Shown piece by piece: positions 23,398 to 34,259 of a stretch of DNA of 64,000 bases (positions are counted from its first letter, which is position 1; each line of letters begins with the position of its first letter). Source of the stretch: Celeribacter naphthalenivorans. GTDB lineage: Bacteria > Pseudomonadota > Alphaproteobacteria > Rhodobacterales > Rhodobacteraceae. Where the stretch lies: assembly GCF_020524585.1 (NCBI RefSeq), contig NZ_JAIVLK010000011.1:124001-188000 (forward strand), read 5' to 3'. Made by a program: the position numbers and the translations under genes. A model generated the notes under the pieces. It made no database searches and had not been told where the DNA came from. It saw only the letters and a list, made by a program, of their open reading frames with translations.

Positions 23398-24405
23398 TTA
23401 CTTCAGCATGCGCGCGTCAGTGGCGGGCAGGTAATCTTCGGTGAAATAGAGGCTCGCGTCAGGCTCTGCGTTGAACTCGTAGACCATTTTGAGCTGCTCA
23501 AGCGAGCCGGCAAAGCGCTCCGCATCGATCCCGCCCATGCCGTGTTCGGCGACGTAATCGGTGTAGACATTGCCCTCAAGCGCCAGTTCGAGACGGCGGG
23601 TCTCAAGGTCCAGATCAGAGGCCGGGTTGTACTTGATCATATATTCGACCGAGGCCTTCGGATCGGCCATGGCGTCTTTCCAGCCCATGGTCACGGCGGA
23701 GACAAAATCTTTGACCGCGTCCGGGTTCTCAGAGGCGAAATCGGTGTTCACAATCAACACGTTGCCGTAAAGGTTCACGCCGTAATCCGACATCATGATG
23801 GTCGAAATGTCATCTTCCGGCACGCCGAGGCGCACGAGGTTCAGGAAGGACGAAAAGTTAAAGCCAGTGACGGCATCGACCTTGCCCTCGGCCAGCATCG
23901 GCTCGCGGGTCGGGAAGCCGACCGGCTCGACAGTGATCGCCTCCATGTCGAGATCGTTCTCGGCGGCAAAGATCGGGAATTGCGCCCATGCGCCATCCGG
24001 CGGCGGCGCGCCGAGGATTTTGCCTTCGAGGTCTTTCGGAGCTTCGATGCCCAAAGATTTGCGGCCGACCACGGCGAATGCGGGTGCGTCATAGATCATC
24101 ATCATGCCGATGACCGGCGCGCCGGGGTTTTGGTCGAGGAATTTTACGAGGCTGTTGATGTCCGCCATGCCGACCGGAAACGCGCCGGTGGCGACTTTCG
24201 GAATGGCGTCGAGCGAGCCTTGGCCTGCGGAGATTTCAACGCTCAGATCAGCGTCGGAAAAATAGCCTTTTTCCAGTGCGGTGAAATAGGGGGCCGCGGG
24301 GCCCTCGAATTTCCAGTCGAGCGCGAAAGGCATCGCGGTCTCGGCGGTGGCGGCCGTCGCGGTCAGCGCAAAGGCAGCCATGGTGGTGATGGATTTGTAG
24401 AGCAT
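23398..24405 (-). CDS. ABC transporter substrate-binding protein (NMT1/THI5-like)
   Basis: Periplasmic binding protein of 335 residues from the ATG at 24405, which has a GGGGAA site upstream. Sec signal peptide MLYKSITTMAAFALTATAATAETA. The mature part resembles SsuA/ThiY proteins (FALDWKFEGPAAPYFTALEKGYFSDADLSVEISAGQGS; GIEAPKDLEGKILGAPP). These bind small molecules such as sulfonates, pyrimidine or riboflavin precursors; no THI-box or FMN riboswitch is visible, so the ligand stays open. First gene of the operon; an inverted repeat sits 40 bp upstream. Confidence 0.88.
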   Translation of the reverse strand: MLYKSITTMAAFALTATAATAETAMPFALDWKFEGPAAPYFTALEKGYFSDADLSVEISAGQGSLDAIPKVATGAFPVGMADINSLVKFLDQNPGAPVIGMMMIYDAPAFAVVGRKSLGIEAPKDLEGKILGAPPPDGAWAQFPIFAAENDLDMEAITVEPVGFPTREPMLAEGKVDAVTGFNFSSFLNLVRLGVPEDDISTIMMSDYGVNLYGNVLIVNTDFASENPDAVKDFVSAVTMGWKDAMADPKASVEYMIKYNPASDLDLETRRLELALEGNVYTDYVAEHGMGGIDAERFAGSLEQLKMVYEFNAEPDASLYFTEDYLPATDARMLK

Positions 24406-24444
24406 GTTTTTCCCCTGAAAAATTCCCTGTGTCATTCCGGCTCA

Positions 24445-24460
24445 GAATGGCGTGCCATTC
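24445..24460. promoter_or_regulatory. Inverted repeat upstream of the ABC importer operon
   Basis: GAATGGC and GCCATTC with a 2-nt centre make a perfect 16-bp dyad, 40 bp before the start of the binding-protein gene. A candidate operator; the cognate regulator is not adjacent. Confidence 0.45.
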
Positions 24461-24553
24461 AGGCGCCTGCGAGATTGAGGTTCACAATGATGTATACAAC
24501 CTTAATGCCTGCGTAAAAAAATGGCGGAAAAAATTTATTTGCCCATTTGGTAA

Positions 24554-24580
24554 ACAAAAAACGGCCACGTGATGTGGCCG
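24554..24580 (-). terminator. Intrinsic terminator after the cyclic phosphodiesterase gene
   Basis: CGGCCAC (24562-24568) pairs with GTGGCCG (24574-24580); on the minus strand a run of T (24555-24561) follows. It ends the minus-strand transcript from 26592. Confidence 0.88.
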
Positions 24581-24615
24581 CTTTGTCGATATGCGCTCAG
24601 GTCGGCCAATTCGGC

Positions 24616-26592
24616 TCAGAGCGTGATGCGGAATTGTGCGAATCCGTCTGTGCCTTCGCCCGCGTCCTCAATGGTCAGGCCTTTGAGATCAGAGAGATGC
24701 GTGCGCGCCGCAGGTCCGGTTTGGAACAACACGGTGGTGTCGCCCAGAGGTGCCAGCGACCAGTTGTTGTCGGCAGTCGGATTGACGGTGCCTTGCTCGA
24801 CGATATAGCGCACGATGATGTCGCGGTTGGTGTCCGGTCCTTCGAAAATCACCGTGGAGCCATCGGCGCCGGGGAAGGTGCCGCCGCCGCCCGCGCGGTA
24901 GTTGTTGGTGGCGACGATAAACTCCATGTCGTCGGTCACAGGCGCTCCGTTGAAGGTCAGGTTGACAATCCGCGAGGCGTCCGGGTTCAGCGGCTCGCCG
25001 TTGGCATCGAACCGCGAAGGCTGTGAAATGTCGATCTGATAGTCCACCCCGTCGATCACGTCGAAATTGTAGGAGGCGAAATTGGGGTTCAGCAGAACCG
25101 CATCTGTCGCGCCTTTCTCGACCTGATTGAACATGCCTGCGGAGCGCTCCAGCCAGCCTTTGAGCTGGGCGCCAGTGATGCGTACCGCGCGGATCGTGTT
25201 CGGGTAGAGGTAGAGATCGGCGACATTTTTGATCGCCACATCGCCCGGCGCCACATCGGTGTAATATTCCGGGCCGCCACGACCACCGGCCTTAAAGGGC
25301 GCCGCGGCGGAGAGGATCGGCAGGCCTTCGTGCTCCGTGCCTTTCATCATCTCGCCGATGTACCAAAGCTGGGCGTTTGAGACGATCTGCACCGACGGGT
25401 CATCGGCAACGAGCGCGAAATAGGAATGCAGCGGCGCATTGGTTTTGCCAACGGCGCGGCGCACATAGGCCAGCGTTTGGTCGTGAATGTCCTGCACGGA
25501 GGCCAGAACCGGCTCAACACTTTCCACCAGCGGCGTGATCGAGCGATCTTCTTCGCGGCGCGAGATCGGACGGGTCTCGACTGCGCTGGTCACCACACGC
25601 CAGGCTCCGCCTTCATATTCCAAAAGCAAATCCATCACGCCCAGATGCGAGCCCCAATAGCCGCCCATCACGGCGGGTTTGCCATGGATCAGACCCTTTT
25701 GGCTGTCGACGGCGGCATAGCCATCGTAGGTCGGAGAGGGGAAGACAAGGTGCGAGTGGCCTGTCAAAAGCGCATCCACCCCGTCGATTTCCGCAAGCGG
25801 CACGGAGGCGTTTTCCATGCCCTCGGTATGCTCTGCAGAGCCAATGCCAGAGTGGTTCAGCGCGATGATAAGATCGGCGCCTTTTTCTTTCATCTCAGGC
25901 ACATAGGCGCGGGCGGTCTCGACGATATCGCGGGCGTTCACATTGCCTTCGAGGTTCTTGCGATCCCACATCATGATTTGCGGCGGCACGAAACCAATGA
26001 GACCGATCTTGATCTTATGTGTTTCGCCCGCGCCATCGGTGATCTCGCGATCGAGGATCACATAGGGCGGCAAAAGTGTGACGTCTTCGCGGGGCGTGGC
26101 GCCCATTTCTTTGACGACGTTGGCGGAAATCACCGGGTAATTCGCGCCCGCCAGCGCCTTCATCAGAAAATCGATGCCGTAGTTGAATTCGTGGTTGCCC
26201 AAGGTCGAGGCGTCAAATCCCAGCGTGTTCATCGCAGTGATGACCGGGTGCATGTCGCCCTCTTTCATGCCGCGCTCATAGGCGATGAAGTCGCCCATCG
26301 GGTTACCCTGCAAGAAATCGCCATTGTCCAACAGCATCGCATTGGTCGCCTCGACGCGGATGTCATTGATATGCGCGGCGGTGCGGGCGAGGCCGACCGT
26401 GTCTACAGGCTTGTCGGCGTAATAGTCATAGGGAAACACATGAACGTGCAGGTCCGTGGTTTCCATAATCCGCAAATGGGCCTGGTTGGCGCTGGCGCGG
26501 GCCGAAAAGGGATGAAGAGCAATCAAAGCAGTTCCTGCGATTGTGCCGGACAGAAAACCCCGGCGATTTATGTGTTTTTTTAGATGGTTCAT
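24616..26592 (-). CDS. Tat-exported 2',3'-cyclic-nucleotide 2'-phosphodiesterase/3'-nucleotidase
   Basis: CpdB-like periplasmic enzyme that breaks RNA-derived 2',3'-cyclic nucleotides and 3'-nucleotides to nucleosides and phosphate. 658 residues from the ATG at 26592. A twin-arginine signal is visible ([27 protein letters not shown]). Metallophosphatase motifs are [46 protein letters not shown] and [11 protein letters not shown]. The C-terminal 5'-nucleotidase domain has [24 protein letters not shown]. It sits head-to-tail upstream of the NMT1-type importer but is separated from it by a terminator. Confidence 0.93.
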
Positions 26593-26857
26593 CTGGCTAC
26601 TCCATGTCTTGATACGGTGCCTGAGTCTGAGGGTGATGCGACCATCTTTCCGCCACAAGACAAAGATGTGACGTTTACGAATTTACCATTAGAAAACAGT
26701 CAGGCAATCCATTTTGGGTTGCCATTTGGGCTAAGCGCGCAACCTTAAATTGTATTATTGTTTTTTGTCGCAAAATGGCAACAGGGAATCTGTGTCGCGA
26801 TTGCCGAAATGTCGGGGTGTCTTGGTTCCGACGGGCAACCGGGCATAAGCCAATCAC

Positions 26858-27805
26858 ATGAAACAGGATTTGGTGCCGCTTGCTGGCGGAGAATTGAACA
26901 GAGCTGCGCATCTGAGGGCCAAGGCCGACGTGATGCGGGGGCAGGTGGATGCACTTGTGATGCCGATCTGGCGCGGGCATGTGCCGACGGATGCGGAGGG
27001 CGCCTTGGCGCTGCTCAGTGCCGCGCGCTTTGATGCGGCTGAGGCGCAGGAGCTTTTCCTCGGCCTTCTGCCCGGCGGTCAGCCGGTTTTTGCCCACGAT
27101 GTCAGTGCCTTCGAGCCACTGGTCGCAGATGACGATGCCGCGCGCCCTTCGCCGTGGTCGAGCGCAAGGCTGATGTTTGCGGAACTGGACGGGCTGACAT
27201 TCCGCGATCTGCGGGCGGTGATGACCACGCTCACGCCACTTGAGGCGGAGATGGCGGGCACGGCGCGGGGACTTTTCGAATGGCACCGTAGTCACGGGTT
27301 TTGTGCGGCCTGTGGCGCGAAGTCGGACATGTCTCAGGCCGGCTGGCAGAGGGACTGCCCTGCTTGCGGGGCCTCGCATTTCCCGCGCACCGATCCGGTG
27401 GTGATCATGCTGGTGACCCGTGGCAATTCCGTCCTTTTGGGGCGCAATGAAAATTGGCCGGAGCGGATGTATTCCCTGCTTGCGGGCTTCGTCGAACCGG
27501 GCGAACCCATCGAGGCGGCCGTGCGGCGCGAGGTTTTCGAAGAGGCAGGCGTGCGTGTCGGCAAGGTTTCTTACGTCACCAGCCAGCCTTGGCCCTTTCC
27601 GGCGTCTTTGATGTTGGGCTGTCGCGCGGAGGCGGAGAGCACGGAGATCATCATCGACCCGGTGGAGATCGAAGACGCCCGCTGGGTGCGGCGTGAAGAG
27701 TTGGCTCTGGCGATGGCTGGACAGCACCCGGAGATTTCCCCCGCAAGAAAAGGCGCCATCGCGCAAGTTCTGATGGCCAAGTGGCTTGCGGATGATTGGG
27801 AATAA
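26858..27805 (+). CDS. nudC: NADH pyrophosphatase / RNA decapping Nudix hydrolase
   Basis: Hydrolyses NADH to NMNH and AMP and can remove NAD caps from RNA. 315 residues. Zinc ribbon CAACGAKSDMSQAGWQRDCPACG, Nudix box GFVEPGEPIEAAVRREVFEEAGV, and the NudC-specific SQPWPFPASLMLG after the box. The N-terminal domain is as in alphaproteobacterial NudC. The ribosome site before 26858 is weak. It is followed after 39 bp by the SRPBCC gene. Confidence 0.95.
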   Translation: MKQDLVPLAGGELNRAAHLRAKADVMRGQVDALVMPIWRGHVPTDAEGALALLSAARFDAAEAQELFLGLLPGGQPVFAHDVSAFEPLVADDDAARPSPWSSARLMFAELDGLTFRDLRAVMTTLTPLEAEMAGTARGLFEWHRSHGFCAACGAKSDMSQAGWQRDCPACGASHFPRTDPVVIMLVTRGNSVLLGRNENWPERMYSLLAGFVEPGEPIEAAVRREVFEEAGVRVGKVSYVTSQPWPFPASLMLGCRAEAESTEIIIDPVEIEDARWVRREELALAMAGQHPEISPARKGAIAQVLMAKWLADDWE

Positions 27806-27844
27806 CGGAATAACCTATCTGCGGAAGGTAACAGGTGAGCAGGC

Positions 27845-28318
27845 ATGAAATTCTCGACGCGTCAGGACATTGAAGCCCCGGCAGAGTTTGTTTTCGAACA
27901 TTTCACGGATTTCGAAGGGCTCGAGCGTCAGGCCATGCGCCGTGGGATCGAGGTGGCGCGCAAGTCGCCGCATCAGCCGCGCGATGTCGGAGCTGGCTGG
28001 ACGCTCAAAGTGCCGTTTCGCGGTAAGATTCGCGACCTCGATGCCGAGATCGTCGAATGCGACGCGCCGAACATGCTGGCCGCGACGGCGGTCTCCGGCG
28101 GGTTGAATATGGAGATCAAGTCCGAGCTTGTGCCCCTGTCGCCGCAGCGCACACGGGTGACCATCGGCTATGAGGTGCGGCCCAAGACGTTGTCGGCGCG
28201 CATCCTCGTGCAATCGGTAAAATTTGCGAAAGCGACCCTGCAGAAACGCTTTGAGAAGCGGATTAAGAAATACTGCGAACACCTGTCGGAGCAATATCAG
28301 GGTGCGCCGAAGCGCTAA
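27845..28318 (+). CDS. SRPBCC (START-like) superfamily protein
   Basis: 157-residue protein with a predicted ligand-cavity fold: MKFSTRQDIEAPAEFVFEHFTDFEGLERQAMRRG at the N-terminus, and a long C-terminal helix (SARILVQSVKFAKATLQKRFEKRIKKY). Proteins of this family bind lipids or hydrophobic molecules or act as cyclases/hydratases; no function can be assigned. A GGTGAGCAGG stretch precedes the start. The stop codon is part of the palindromic element 28316-28429. Confidence 0.8.
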   Translation: MKFSTRQDIEAPAEFVFEHFTDFEGLERQAMRRGIEVARKSPHQPRDVGAGWTLKVPFRGKIRDLDAEIVECDAPNMLAATAVSGGLNMEIKSELVPLSPQRTRVTIGYEVRPKTLSARILVQSVKFAKATLQKRFEKRIKKYCEHLSEQYQGAPKR

Positions 28319-28429
28319 AGCGTTTCTCAAAAACTTGAGGCACTCAATTTTTGAGAAACGCAGCAATATCAATTCAGCGTGGCAACGTTTTTCGCTCAAT
28401 CTGATTCAGATTAAACGAAAAACGCTTTA
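28316..28429. repeat. 114-bp composite palindromic element (MITE/REP-like)
   Basis: The ends are 10-bp inverted repeats (TAAAGCGTTT and AAACGCTTTA). Inside are two hairpins: a 14-bp perfect stem (28320-28333 with 28348-28361) whose loop pairs again (TTGAG with CTCAA), and a second with arms CGTTTTTCG (28386-28394) and CGAAAAACG (28416-28424) around AATCTGA-T-TCAGATT (28398-28412). It contributes the stop codon of the upstream gene and lies before the convergent pheA end. Its form is that of a small mobile intergenic repeat, possibly also acting as a terminator. Confidence 0.7.
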
Positions 28430-28451
28430 ACCCTGTTTCGCTTTGGGAGTC

Positions 28452-29282
28452 TCAGGTCCGGCGCGGGTCGGCCGGGTAGACGCCCAGAATTTCCACCATT
28501 TCCGTGAAATAGCGCAGCTCATCCAGCGCCAGGCGGACGTTGTCGTCCTCCGGGTGACCTTCGATGTCGGCATAGAATTGCGTCGCGGTGAAGACGCCGT
28601 CGACCATGTAGCTTTCCAGTTTCGTCATGTTGATGCCATTGGTCGCGAAACCGCCCATGGCTTTGTAGAGCGCGGCGGGGATGTTGCGGACACGGAACAT
28701 GAAGGCGGTGACCATCTTGTCGGCGCGGCGTTCATAATTCGGCTCGCGGGCCATGATCAGGAACCGCGTGGTGTTGAGTTTGTGGTCTTCGATATGACGG
28801 GCCAGAACATCGAGGCCGAAAATCTCGCCCGCAAGCTCGGAGGCAAAAGCACCGATTGCGGGATTGCCTTCTTCCTTGACCGACCGCGCGGCGGCGGCAT
28901 TGTCGGACCAGTTGACGGTGGTGATGCCATGTTCGCGGATAAAGCCACGGGCCTGTCCCAAAAGCACGGACATGGCGCGGGCGGTTTTGATGTCGGAAAT
29001 CTGTGTGCCGGGAAGGCCCAGAAGGTTCACATGCACCCGCACAAAGGTCTCGTCGATGATATGCAGACCGGAGTCGGGCAAAAGATGATAGACGTCCTGC
29101 ACCCGGCCATAGGTCGAATTTTCGACCGCGATCATGCCGAGATCGGCGGCACCGGAGCGCACGGCCTCCATCGCGTCCTCAAAGGTCGGGCAGGGCAAGG
29201 GGTCGTAATCGGGACGGGCATCGGCGCAGGCTTGATGCGAATAAGAGCCGGGTTCCCCCTGAAATGCGATGCGAGCGGCCAT
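28452..29282 (-). CDS. pheA: Prephenate dehydratase
   Basis: Makes phenylpyruvate from prephenate in phenylalanine synthesis. 276 residues: catalytic PDT domain (IAFQGEPGSYSHQA; GMIAVENSTYGRVQDVYHLL; DNAAAARSVKEEGNPAIGAFASELA; NTTRFLIMAREP) and a C-terminal ACT domain for phenylalanine feedback (FRVRNIPAALYKAMGGFATNGINMTKLESYMVDG). No chorismate mutase domain is fused. Divergent from the cytochrome c gene. Confidence 0.95.
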   Translation of the reverse strand: MAARIAFQGEPGSYSHQACADARPDYDPLPCPTFEDAMEAVRSGAADLGMIAVENSTYGRVQDVYHLLPDSGLHIIDETFVRVHVNLLGLPGTQISDIKTARAMSVLLGQARGFIREHGITTVNWSDNAAAARSVKEEGNPAIGAFASELAGEIFGLDVLARHIEDHKLNTTRFLIMAREPNYERRADKMVTAFMFRVRNIPAALYKAMGGFATNGINMTKLESYMVDGVFTATQFYADIEGHPEDDNVRLALDELRYFTEMVEILGVYPADPRRT

Positions 29283-29404
29283 TTTTATCCCTTTTCCTGC
29301 GTTTGAACTGCGCTAACTTGTCCGGGTTTCGGTCTTATACCTTGAAATGAATCATGGGAAGCGGGTAGATATCGCGCGACGAACCTATAGGAACGGAACG
29401 CAAT

Positions 29405-29923
29405 ATGTTCAACACTATGACCCTTACCAAGATCGTGGGCGGCGTATGCGGCACATTCTTGATCTTCCTTCTCGGCAACTGGGCCGCCACTTCCATCTAT
29501 GCCATGGACGCCACCGGACATGACGGTGAACAGGTTCAGGCCTATGTTATTGCCACCGGCGATGACGATGCTGTGGAAGAAGAAGCGGTCGAAGTGAGCT
29601 TTGACGAACTTTTGGCTTCTGCCGATGCGGCGAAAGGCGAGAAAGTCTTTGGCAAATGCAAAGCCTGTCACAAGATTGACGGTTCGAACGGTACGGGGCC
29701 GCACCTCGATGGCGTGTTCGGGCGTGCGCTCGCCGCAGTTGGCGACTTTTCCTACTCGGACGCAATGGCGACCCATGGCGGCGTTTGGGATGCTGAGGCT
29801 CTGAACGCCTATCTGGAAAGCCCGAAAGACGCCGTGCCGGGCAACAAGATGTCCTTTGCCGGTCTGAAAAAGGTCGAAGATCGCGCCAACATCGTGGCCT
29901 ATCTTCAGTCGATCTCCGGCTAA
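29405..29923 (+). CDS. Membrane-anchored class I cytochrome c (CycM / cytochrome c-y type)
   Basis: Electron carrier tethered to the periplasmic face of the inner membrane, linking the bc1 complex to terminal oxidases. 172 residues: an uncleaved N-terminal anchor (TKIVGGVCGTFLIFLLGNWAATSIYA), an acidic spacer (DDDAVEEEAVE, about 53-63), then one heme c domain with C85-K-A-C-H89 and the axial Met in PGNKMSF. It precedes the yejA gene but has its own terminator. Likely an electron donor to the cbb3 oxidase coded at 50-53 kb. Confidence 0.93.
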   Translation: MFNTMTLTKIVGGVCGTFLIFLLGNWAATSIYAMDATGHDGEQVQAYVIATGDDDAVEEEAVEVSFDELLASADAAKGEKVFGKCKACHKIDGSNGTGPHLDGVFGRALAAVGDFSYSDAMATHGGVWDAEALNAYLESPKDAVPGNKMSFAGLKKVEDRANIVAYLQSISG

Positions 29924-29958
29924 ACGACGCTCTCCGCGCATCGCGTGCAGATTATGAG

Positions 29959-29988
29959 ACCCCCGCTGGCCGCACCAGCGGGGGTTTT
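29959..29988 (+). terminator. Intrinsic terminator after the cytochrome c gene
   Basis: ACCCCCGCTGG (29959-29969) pairs with CCAGCGGGGGT (29975-29985) around CCGCA, followed by T-rich sequence. Confidence 0.93.
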
Positions 29989-30124
29989 GTTTTGTGCAGA
30001 GCTTGGGATCGGCGCCTTCGATCACGTAAATTCGAGCGCATGTAACTTGCATCCCGGTGGTCCGGCACATTACCGTCTGTTGCAAGACACCCTGACGTCC
30101 TCAACGCCTCCCGGAGACCCGAAT

Positions 30125-32023
30125 ATGATCCAACGCCCCTTCGCCCGCGTCTTTCCTCTCATGGCAACGCTCGGCCTTATGTCCGGGGCGGCCTTGGCCC
30201 AGGAGGCTCAGAACGCTGCGGACAGCGATGGGGCCGACAAGATCATCACCTCGACCTGGTACTCAGACTGGGATGAGGCGAAATATGCCGAGCCTTTCGA
30301 TCATCTCGATTACGTCAATCCAGACGCCCCGAAAGGCGGCGAGATCATTCTTGGCACTGTGGGCACTTTCGACAGTCTGAACCCCTTTTCCACGCTGTCC
30401 GGCACGCCCGCCTCTCTGTCGTCTTCGATGTATGAGCGTTTGATGGTCGGGACCGCGGATGAGTATAAATCGGCCAGCTATTGCGTGCTTTGCGAGACCA
30501 TCGAATATCCGGAGAGCAAGGATTGGGTGATTTTCCACCTGCGTGACGATGTGACCTTTTCCGACGGCACGCCGATGACGGCTGAGGATGTGGCCTACAC
30601 CCACAATAAATTCATCGCCGAGGGCACGCCGTCCTGGCGCGCAGGCGTGTCCGCTATGATCGAAAAGGTCGAGGCGCTCGATGAGCACACCGTCAAATTC
30701 ACCTTTCAACCGGACATTCCGCGCAGCGGCTTGATCGGTCAGGCGGGCGCGACTCTGGTGATGAAAAAGGCGTGGTTCGAAGAGACAGGCCACCGGCTCG
30801 ATGAAAAGCGCTATGAGACCTCGCCGGGCACCGGGCCCTATATGCTGACCTCTTATGATCCCGGCCAATGGGTTCAATACACCCGCAATCCCGACTATTG
30901 GGGCGCGGAGCATCCGTTCAACGTCGGGCGCAACAACCTAGACACCATTCAGGTGACCTATTTCGGCGATACCATCGCGGCGTTCGAGGCCTTCAAAGCC
31001 GGGGACATCACCTTCCGCCAGGAAAACTCCTCGCTCGTCTGGGCGACAAATTACGATTTTCCGGCGCTTGAGAATGGCTGGGTGAAAAAGGAAACCCTGC
31101 ATAACGGCAGCATTCCCGGCGCCACCGGGTTCCTGTTCAACTTGCGGCGCGAGAAATTGCAGGACCGCAATGTGCGTTTGGCGCTGGGGCTGATGTACAA
31201 CTTCACCTGGACCAACGAGACGCTGCAATACGGGTTGTTTGCCCAGCGTGAAAGCTTTTGGCAAACGCCGGAGCTGATGGCGACCGGCCTGCCGGAGGGC
31301 AAGGAGCTTGAAATTCTCGAAGGCGTCAAAGACGATCTGCCCGAGGCGATTTTTACCGAAGAAGCCTTTTTGCCGCATAGCTCCGGCGACCGCTCTTTGG
31401 ATCGTCGCAATATGCGTCAGGCCACGGCTTTGCTGGCAGAGGCAGGTTACACTCCGGGCGATGATGGCAAAATGCGCAATGCTTCGGGCGAGGTCCTGTC
31501 CCTCGAAATCCTGCATTTCAGCCCGACCTGGGATCGGCTCATCAAACCCTATGTCGAAAACCTGACCGCGCTGGGCGTGGATGCCCGATACAACCGGATC
31601 GACCCGAACCAATATCAGGCTCGTAAGCAAAGCTTTGACTACGACATGATCTTCGACGGCTATTCTAATGGCTTCGAAGAAGGCGCCGGGTTCTTGCAAA
31701 AATACGGCTGTGAGGAAGTGGACGATATTTTCAACCCGGCGGGCTATTGCAACCCGGCGATTGAAACGATCGGCAAGGAAATCCTGAACGCCGAGACCTA
31801 TGAGGACATGGCGGCGATGGTCAAAGCCGCTGACCGGATCATGCGCTATGATTATTTCATCGTGCCGGCGCATATGAACGACAGCTATTGGGTCGCCTAT
31901 TACGACATGTATGAGCACCCCGATGAGGACACGATGCCGCCGCTCGATCTGGGGTTTTTGGATTTCTGGTGGGTGAATGCCGACCGCGAAGCGGAATTGC
32001 GTGCGGCAGGCGCGTTGAAGTAA
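30125..32023 (+). CDS. Peptide/microcin-C-type ABC transporter substrate-binding protein (YejA-like)
   Basis: Periplasmic binding protein of 632 residues from the ATG at 30125 (GGAGA upstream), first gene of a four-gene operon. Sec signal peptide with AALAQ cleavage near residue 25. The mature protein is an SBP family 5 protein of the YejA branch (FDHLDYVNPDAPKGGEIILGTVGTFDSLNPF; GTGPYMLTSYDPGQWVQYTRNPDYWG; FDYDMIFDGYSNGFEEGAGFLQKYG). In E. coli the Yej system takes up microcin C and peptides. The ligand here is probably oligopeptides. Confidence 0.92.
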   Translation: MIQRPFARVFPLMATLGLMSGAALAQEAQNAADSDGADKIITSTWYSDWDEAKYAEPFDHLDYVNPDAPKGGEIILGTVGTFDSLNPFSTLSGTPASLSSSMYERLMVGTADEYKSASYCVLCETIEYPESKDWVIFHLRDDVTFSDGTPMTAEDVAYTHNKFIAEGTPSWRAGVSAMIEKVEALDEHTVKFTFQPDIPRSGLIGQAGATLVMKKAWFEETGHRLDEKRYETSPGTGPYMLTSYDPGQWVQYTRNPDYWGAEHPFNVGRNNLDTIQVTYFGDTIAAFEAFKAGDITFRQENSSLVWATNYDFPALENGWVKKETLHNGSIPGATGFLFNLRREKLQDRNVRLALGLMYNFTWTNETLQYGLFAQRESFWQTPELMATGLPEGKELEILEGVKDDLPEAIFTEEAFLPHSSGDRSLDRRNMRQATALLAEAGYTPGDDGKMRNASGEVLSLEILHFSPTWDRLIKPYVENLTALGVDARYNRIDPNQYQARKQSFDYDMIFDGYSNGFEEGAGFLQKYGCEEVDDIFNPAGYCNPAIETIGKEILNAETYEDMAAMVKAADRIMRYDYFIVPAHMNDSYWVAYYDMYEHPDEDTMPPLDLGFLDFWWVNADREAELRAAGALK

Positions 32024-32058
32024 AGACGCTGAGAAAACAATAAAGAGCAGGACGGTTC

Positions 32059-33156
32059 ATGGGAGCCTATATTCTACGGCGTGTGTTGTTGATCATTCCG
32101 ACGCTGATCGGGATCATGGTGGTGAACTTTGCGCTGACGCAATTCGTGCCGGGCGGTCCAGTCGAACAGGTGCTTGCCAATTTGCAGGGCGAGGGAGACG
32201 TGTTCGAGACGATCACCGGCACCCAAGCCGATGCGGGCAGCGCGAATACGACCGAAAACACCGCCTATCAAAGCGAATACGCCGGTGCGCGGGGCCTTCC
32301 GCCCGAGTTCATTGCCGATCTGGAACGGCAATTCGGCCTCGACAAACCGCCGCTCGAGCGTTTCCTCACGATGATGTGGAACTACATGCGCTTCGATTTC
32401 GGAGAGAGCTATTTCAAATCCGAGGGCGTGCTCGATCTCGTTTGGGACAAGCTTCCTGTGTCGATTTCCTTGGGGCTTTGGGCGACCCTGATTTCCTATA
32501 TGGTTTCCATCCCTTTGGGCATTCGCAAGGCCGTGCGTGACGGCTCGCGTTTTGACACATGGACTTCAGGCATCATCATCGCCGCCTATGCGATCCCGAG
32601 CTTTCTCTTTGCGATCCTGCTTTTGGTTTTGTTCGCGGGGGGGTCGTATTGGCAGATTTTCCCTCTACGCGGTCTGACCTCTCCCGATTGGGATCAGATG
32701 TCTGTGCTGGGCAAGATTGGGGACTATTTCTGGCACATTGCCCTGCCGGTTCTGGCCTCCGTGATCTCGTCCTTCGCGACGCTCACGCTTTTGACCAAGA
32801 ACTCCTTCCTCGATGAAATTCGCAAACAATATGTGGTGACCGCTAAGGCCAAGGGGCTGCCTGAATCCCGCGTCCTCTACGGCCACGTCTTCCGCAATGC
32901 GATGATGATCGTGATCGCGGGCTTTCCGGGGTTGTTTCTGGGTGTGTTCTTCGGCGGATCGGTGATCATCGAGACGCTGTTCTCTCTCGATGGTTTGGGG
33001 CGTCTGGGCTATGAGGCCGCTCTCGCACGCGACTATCCGGTGATCTTCGGCACGCTGTTCTTCTTTGGCCTCATTGGTCTGCTGATCGGGATTTTGTCGG
33101 ATCTGATGTATGTCTTTGTCGACCCGCGGATCGACTTTGAGCGGAGGGACACATGA
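32059..33156 (+). CDS. yejB: ABC transporter permease (YejB-like)
   Basis: 365-residue permease of the oligopeptide/dipeptide type. It opens with [37 protein letters not shown], the YejB signature start; a long periplasmic stretch follows the first helix. The coupling motif is [25 protein letters not shown] and the C-terminus ends [18 protein letters not shown]. Translationally coupled to the next gene (ATGA at 33153). Confidence 0.94.
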
Positions 33157-34259
33157 AGATGTCCGAACTCAATCGCCGTCGCTGGCGGAATTTTAAATCG
33201 AACCGCCGCGCCTATTGGTCGCTGATCATTTTCTCGATCCTCTTTGGCCTGTCGCTCTTTGCCGAGTTCCTCGCGAACGACAAGCCGATCCTCGTGCAAT
33301 ATCGCGGCGGCTATTACATGCCGATCTTCAAATTCTACCCGGAAACCGAGTTCGGCGGCGATTTCAGGACCGAAGCCGTCTATCGCTACCCCGAGGTGCA
33401 ATGTCTGATCGAGACCGGCGGCATGGTCGACTGTTTCGACGATCCCGAAGCCTATCTCGAAGACGCCCAAGATGGCGTGGTCAATGGCGAAGAGATCGAG
33501 AAGGGCTGGATGGTCTGGCCGCCCATTCGCTATTCCTACAACACGCAGGTCGAGGGACCGGGGGCCGCGCCCTCGCCGCCGACGCGGCAGAACTGGCTGG
33601 GCACCGATGACACCAAACGCGATGTGGTCGCGCGGGTGATCTACGGTTTCCGCCTGTCGATTTTCTTCACCCTCGTGGTGTCGCTGGCCTCCTCGCTCAT
33701 CGGCGTCATTGCGGGCGCGATTCAGGGGTTTTTCGGCGGACGCACCGATCTCATATTCCAGCGCGTGTTGGAAATCTGGGGCGCGATGCCCGCGCTCTAT
33801 GTGATCATCATCCTCTTCGCCATATTGGGACGAAGTTTCTGGCTTTTGGTCTTTGTCACCATCCTTTTCGGCTGGACCGCGCTTGTCGGCGTGGTGCGGG
33901 CCGAATTCCTGCGGGCGCGGAATTTCGAATATATCCGCGCGGCGCGGGCCTTGGGCGTTGGCAACTGGACGATCATGTTCCGCCATATGTTGCCCAATGC
34001 GATGGTGGCGACCTTGACCATGCTGCCCTTCATCGTGACCGGCAATATTGGCATGCTGGCCTCTCTCGATTTTCTGGGCTTTGGCCTGCCGTCCTCGGCG
34101 CCCTCTCTGGGTGAGTTGACGCTACAGGCGAAACAGAACCTTCAGGCGCCTTGGCTCGCCTTCACCGCCTTTTTCACCTATGCCATCATGCTCTCGCTTC
34201 TGGTCTTCATTTTCGAAGGCGTGCGGGATGCGTTTGACCCGAGGAAGACCTTTCGATGA
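33153..34259 (+). CDS. yejE: ABC transporter permease (YejE-like)
   Basis: Second permease, 368 residues. N-terminal cytosolic segment [38 protein letters not shown], a long periplasmic insert, then five further helices with the coupling motif [27 protein letters not shown]. It starts inside the stop of yejB and its stop overlaps the ATG of yejF (34256), so the whole operon is coupled. Confidence 0.94.

Follow-up and report, generated by a model that had tools for sequence, protein, structure and literature searches.

A palindromic repeat in a stop codon of Celeribacter naphthalenivorans: a mobile element with probable ties to IS630

In the genome of Celeribacter naphthalenivorans, the gene of an SRPBCC-like protein ends inside a 114-bp palindromic element. 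What kind of element is this, how did it come to occupy the end of a gene, and does it serve there as a functional 3′ end? From the comparison of sequences we regard it as likely that Celeribacter harbors here a non-autonomous MITE of the IS630 type, with an anatomy resembling that of the CIR repeats, and that this MITE would be moved in trans by a transposase of the IS630 family. Positions without further label refer to the window, the whole analyzed stretch of 64,000 nucleotides; genomes and loci are cited by our own G and L numbers.

Anatomy and distribution of the element

The first-pass annotation had described terminal inverted repeats of 10 bp enclosing two strong hairpins, and direct reading bears this out. 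Including both TA copies, the element spans 28316–28429 on the plus strand, as also indicated by its other copies and by an empty site in a relative (L146). It is bounded by perfect 10-bp repeats, TAAAGCGTTT at 28316–28325 (plus strand), which is identical to the outermost 10 bases in most of the IS630 ends examined, and AAACGCTTTA at 28420–28429 (minus strand). DNA folding of 28316–28430 yields two hairpins with −30.1 kcal/mol, compared with −11.2 (sd 2.5) kcal/mol in 200 dinucleotide shuffles of the same stretch, none of which was as good (z −7.5 for the element). The left arm (28320–28361, plus strand) resembles in its outer half end A of IS630 (ACTTGAGGCA versus ACCTGAGACA), with the motif off by one base because one A of an A run is missing. 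A linker (28362–28385, plus strand, delimited by the fold) joins it to the right arm (28386–28424, plus strand), which contains AATCTGATTCAGATT at 28398–28412 and from the right end inwards is similar to end B of IS630, AATCTGAATC. The loop of this arm carries GATTC, an instance of GANTC, at 28403–28407 (plus strand), that is, at bases 23–27 from the right end.

The gene upstream (27845–28318, plus strand) matches Pfam Polyketide_cyc2 (PF10604, E 1.4e-9), which we take to be a member of the SRPBCC superfamily. As the annotation had noted, its stop codon is supplied by the element: TAA at 28316–28318 forms the first three bases of the repeat, and the left copy of the TA target (28316–28317) provides bases 1 and 2 of this codon. 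The right TA copy, placed by the empty-site alignment, lies at 28428–28429, and the convergent gene of a prephenate dehydratase (28452–29282, minus strand) has its stop 23 bases past the element. No Rfam family reached the gathering score in 24000–33000, and no promoter-like sites were found at the window copy.

The annotation would have regarded the structure as a local terminator pair had no other copies existed, but the genome holds many. A blastn search with element and flanks gave 42 matches, corresponding to 25 places after overlapping and self-inverted ones were merged, 20 of them with both ends. Matches were obtained in 8 of 81 genomes, all of them Celeribacter (20 genomes of the genus in the set, including the own genome). 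Following a deeper search of five of the 8 genomes, 118 copies were fetched and 116 kept, two of G006 (L090, L092) being removed since their 40 left-flank bases equaled those of another copy. The kept copies comprise 25 in the own genome, 38 in G006, 33 in G019, 11 in G003, four in G016, three in G015 and one each in G014 and G004; the counts for G006 and G019 may be low, since scoring covered 40 of 56 and 40 of 43 candidates, respectively. Both ends were found in 105 of the 116, with lengths of 112–117 bp, and the remaining 11 were excluded from target and length counts. The element is thus short, lacks a transposase gene and occurs in many copies, as is characteristic of MITEs. An exact 21-base pattern recovered 20 stretches in Celeribacter sp. 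HF31, Celeribacter sp. PS-C1 and C. persicus DSM 100434 (taken as G019, G016, and G003).

Beyond the genus, a sequence model of the Celeribacter element detected relatives in six other genera among 149 genomes of the family (own included, 25 candidates per genome). One of these stretches, L202, which lies at a contig end and was unread, was left out of the other-genus set, and both L202 and L204 (83 bp) were left out of the end comparison. The plasmid collection contained no blastn match to the MITE itself, and model R2 gave no match in three 50-kb pieces (150 kb) of S. meliloti pSymB. Applied to the whole class, R2 matched one of 288 other genomes, a result that is uninformative on absence because only 12 candidates per genome were scored. 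Variants of about 70 bp with similar termini, shorter than the two-arm form, were matched by R2 at L062:5011–5080 and L066:2161–2231 (E 0.0001–0.003). As a separate observation, the contig ends C4 (L061:1–532) and C10 (L062:1–31) share a stretch ending in GAGACACGCTTTA, which on C4 adjoins a small, secreted-looking gene of 113 aa and is probably an assembly break in a repeat.

Mobility, target sites and stop codons

Joined flanks of ten own copies were searched in the genus, and the 20 stretches fetched allowed nine loci to be aligned. At five of them a clean empty site with a single TA was present, whereas the filled sites have TA on both sides, the target duplication that the annotation had suggested looking for. 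At the window locus, G006 (L146) reads CGC-TAACCCTG and the own genome CGC-TA-element-TA-ACCCTG; the other clean empty sites correspond to L010 (in G019), L012 (G016), L014 (G006 and G019), and L015 (G006). Other relatives at these five loci have diverged beside the stop, some reading TGA. No clean junction was obtained at the remaining four loci. Two of them, L013 and L022, have diverged at that point, and at L017 and L019 the relatives show TCA, which corresponds to a TGA stop on the opposite strand. The window locus of G019 (L149) contains a decayed copy with a partly deleted left arm, and the gene stop is TGA. On the basis of these alignments the element is mobile, with empty sites kept in relatives. 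It sits at the TA of Y-TA-R: position −1 holds C or T in 95 and position +1 A or G in 94 of 105 copies.

One identical sequence recurs in 12 kept copies of G006 and four of G019, which speaks for a recent burst; the former represent nine independent places, because three of the 12 share one site in an IS3-type element. Five G006 copies occupy one and the same position within a split transposase gene of IS3 type, the type being assigned by eye (L090:2501–2615, L092:2501–2615, L093:1581–1695, L100:2501–2615, and L103:1279–1393). This IS3-type element apparently spread together with the inserted MITE, possibly mobilized by an intact copy.

Since both ends of the element start with TAA, it can enter a TAA or TAG stop in either orientation and leave the protein unchanged, as insertion at the TA renews the stop as TAA. 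At 53 element ends the stop of the host gene is the terminal TAA, and the implied codon before insertion is TAA in 38, TAG in 10, TAT in four and TAC in one; the five non-stop codons belong to the IS3-borne site (three) and to truncated copies (two). The window copy likewise inserted into a TAA stop, that of the SRPBCC-like gene. The idea of a repeat reused as a gene's 3′ end therefore holds in so far as the element provides the stop codon, but the gene was not truncated, because TAA is already present at the empty site of the relative. We consider the window copy to be probably a neutral passenger in a stop codon.

How frequently such fusions arise depends on the yardstick. After shared sites were merged, which was done across genomes only in this analysis, 88 independent sites remained, 87 of them in the six main genomes, and 42 of the 87 are fused to a TAA or TAG stop; all stop-codon counts are approximate because genes were called by our own codon-score finder. 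Compared with YTAR sites of element-free intergenic stretches, stop codons included, of which 84 of 361 (23%) lie in stops, insertions at YTAR are enriched (38 of 72, p 6e-8), and they remain so when divergent gene pairs are left out (38 of 69 versus 33%, p 1e-4). Measured against the same intergenic stretch, 43 of 87 sites are stop sites where 26.6 would be expected from all TA sites, and the excess is small when only YTAR sites are considered (39 of 70 observed, 34.1 expected). The effect thus mostly reflects availability, and we do not claim an enzyme that seeks stop codons. The high share of stop-codon sites may be explained by the scarcity of YTAR in coding DNA together with the purging of insertions into genes and promoters. 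Among the stretches from other genera, 7 of 19 read as stop-fused with our gene finder (L200, L203, L205 at both ends, L207, L210, L213, L221). A single element apparently stops both convergent genes at L075 (G019) and L205 (G085), one gene call being weak in each. The case illustrates a rule by which a TA-targeting element with TAA ends can enter the stops of compact genomes with the protein left intact; gene 3′ ends thereby become a refuge for MITEs.

The arms of the element are maintained as pairs. In an alignment of 32 of the 87 distinct Celeribacter copies, 96.0% of the cells pair, and 15 double changes were counted versus 2.3 in shuffles. A wider alignment of 31 chosen sequences, with orientation set by hand, has 81.6% of the cells paired and changes on both sides in 29 of 37 pairs (169 cells versus 67.8 in shuffles); across these sequences most of the stem sequence has been replaced, whereas pairing, length, and end motifs are kept.

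Such covariation would be expected if the element were kept mainly as a functional 3′ end, for instance as a bidirectional terminator, an mRNA stabilizer, or an RNase III site, with mobility being secondary. The distribution of the copies points in the same direction, as convergent genes flank 39 of the 87 independent sites, compared with 75 of 435 background pairs, and divergent genes four of 87, compared with 83 of 435. However, purging of promoter and coding insertions would give the same bias and fits the depletion between divergent genes; moreover, only 15 of the 88 independent sites are common to two or more copies. The terminator role proposed by the annotation finds no counterpart in the window either, where 28200–28560 contains no terminator-like site with a T run and neither hairpin is followed by one. 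A primarily functional 3′ end is therefore unlikely in our view.

The putative IS630 partner

If the element is a MITE, an autonomous relative with matching ends should exist. The own genome contains no match to DDE_3 (IS630), nor do G006, G019, G015 and G016, so that the genomes richest in copies lack the mover of the recent burst. Within the genus, DDE_3 was detected in two of 20 genomes. G007 harbors seven IS630 copies of 1057 bp, with TAAAGCGTTTC at 13 of their 14 ends, and G003 (C. persicus) a single IS630 of 1100 bp, whose DDE part is assigned to the IS630 family by NCBIfam (126 bits). Besides these, 141 plasmid records match the IS630 of the genus, many of them along a short segment; coverage is at least 80% in 21, and 11 of the 21 were read, giving a total of 19 IS630 copies with 11 distinct sequences of each end. 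Their target agrees with that of the MITE, with a pyrimidine at −1 in 17 and a purine at +1 in all 19. The search for a matching transposase thus succeeded for IS630 in G007, G003, and plasmids, but in the own genome neither DDE_3 nor Y1_Tnp was found. Together with the copies and the TA duplication, these IS elements with matching ends substantiate the suggested small non-autonomous mobile repeat.

An IS630-type mover is inferred because the IS630 elements of the genus and of plasmids share with the MITE 10–11 end bases, the target, and inner motifs. The inner motifs, situated about 20–28 bases from the end, are CTGAGRCA for end A and TGAATC for end B, with one of them in each arm of the MITE. 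Among the IS630 copies, GANTC occupies bases 23–27 of end B, which lies 5′ of the transposase, in 18 of 19 and those of end A in none, whereas end A has G[AC][GT][AG]C at these bases in all 19. Of 105 copies of the Celeribacter MITE, 78 have GANTC at bases 23–27 counted from the right end and two have it at this distance from the left end, where composition would give about 0.003 per end; the loop motif of the window copy is accordingly lost in about a quarter of copies. For L034 and L022, bases 18–28 score as end A on the left and as end B on the right (p 0.0005 for both, the floor with 2000 shuffles). Extended to 29 exemplars (10 from Celeribacter, 18 from other genera, one from another family), the comparison gave p<0.01 for 48 of 58 ends, the other 10 not reaching this value, and GANTC occurs at bases 23–27 of an end in 21 of the 29. 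Independence applies solely to comparing the Celeribacter MITE with the IS of the genus, because the MITEs of other genera were detected with a model of the Celeribacter element and the plasmid IS through similarity to a single IS. In genus g10, L197 shares 27 of its initial 29 bases, counted by eye, with end A of the IS630 at L169. Likewise by eye, distant plasmid IS630 copies of Azospirillum and Mesorhizobium gave paired ends with GANTC at bases 23–27 of one end; two of the four distant copies (L239, L242) yielded no convincing pair of ends. MITE and IS630 ends differ around bases 12–17. We assume that the arms of the MITE arose as inverted duplications of two IS ends.

Alternatively, the pairing of the arms might result from hairpin-templated repair or gene conversion instead of selection, with the kinship to IS630 limited to the terminal repeat. 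Stems of other genera that are largely rewritten and yet paired are compatible with such a process, but the above-mentioned 48 of 58 ends whose bases 18–28 beat shuffles at p<0.01 argue against kinship of the terminal repeat alone, although the exemplars are not independent, and we hold this explanation to be improbable. A REP- or BIME-type palindrome moved by a RAYT (Y1 transposase), as the annotation had also considered for this short, palindromic, intergenic element with hairpins, is highly improbable, as the own genome lacks a Y1_Tnp match (the same control search was positive in 5 of 14 known genomes) and TA on both sides together with terminal inverted repeats points to a DDE transposase.

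Inspection by eye of lone TIR-like sites in 12 stretches of the own genome revealed no second inverted end with a transposase between, and some of these sites are variant elements. Two elements 1.1 kb apart in G006 (C1:1351104–1352421) looked like an IS, but were rejected because the 337-aa gene between them reads as a membrane protein by eye. In C. persicus (G003), a variant of the same anatomy lies inside a decayed IS630 transposase gene (L144:1867–1979), one end of this IS being TAAAGCGTTTC.

Relation to CIR and other repeats

RIME of Sinorhizobium is a palindromic alphaproteobacterial repeat of about the size of the Celeribacter element. For CIR, the Caulobacter CcrM-associated intergenic repeats, the original paper is reportedly that of Chen and Shapiro of 2003. 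In the passage on CIR of a review (PMC2229807) they are intergenic repeats of Alphaproteobacteria of about 110 bp, with two long arms and a linker, GANTC in a loop, and TA termini; no TIR is listed there, target duplication is left open, and more information on the mechanism of mobility is called for. By this description the Celeribacter element resembles CIR in size, in its two arms and linker, in GANTC in the terminal loop of one arm, in its TA termini and in its intergenic location, but, unlike CIR as reviewed, shows TIRs, a TA at either flank, and a partner of the IS630 family. The extracts seen of a 2024 MITE review name CIR as strictly intergenic and do not contain the term IS630, and the titles and abstract beginnings of the literature searched included no link of CIR or GANTC repeats with IS630.

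The closest mechanism is that of RUP of S. pneumoniae, a 107-bp MITE with TA target and the IS630-like termini of IS630-Spn1 (PMC2229807, PMC3049150); it differs in sequence and phylum, and according to the entry in PMC2229807 has no other functional motif. Provision of stop codons has likewise been described for BOX of S. pneumoniae, for 36 upstream genes without strong evidence of truncation (PMC3049150), and for QMITE of Coxiella, with at least two cases of QMITE1 (PMC5896051); in the relevant passages of these papers, neither is described as IS630-type with TAA-ended termini. Bru-RS of Brucella (103–105 bp, 35–40 copies; PMC2267715) is, by its description, a similarly sized palindromic repeat of Alphaproteobacteria. 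MITEPye1 of Paracoccus yeei is a MITE from the same order, but is described with termini of the IS1182 family (PMC11578231).

We tentatively extend the reading obtained for Celeribacter to CIR as a class, aware that this is rather doubtful: these repeats might be IS630 MITEs in which each arm is an IS end folded on its own inverted copy, GANTC might be the inner motif of end B, and stops might be safe landing sites since the termini read TAA. Methylation by CcrM may then time the transposition of IS and MITE to replication, a proposal based on the location of the GANTC of end B just upstream of the transposase gene. By analogy, Dam methylation times IS10 transposition to replication. CcrM has been demonstrated in Paracoccus aminophilus of the same order (PMC3925955), and CcrM gating of IS630 transposition becomes a directly testable idea. 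The extension would also suggest a mobility mechanism for a repeat class whose mechanism is left unresolved in the CIR passage of PMC2229807, and a simple origin of GANTC.

Two findings outside the main comparison concern such elements elsewhere. In another alphaproteobacterial family, L224:1501–1601 is a two-arm element with the 15-mer AATCTGATTCAGATT in its right arm and TAGAGCG and CCCTA ends. The conjugative plasmid pow41 of Octadecabacter sp. SW4 (NZ_CP042820.1; L227, L228) carries a CIR-like element at 34090–34205 and also a related IS630 at 72169–73222, where no gene is listed.
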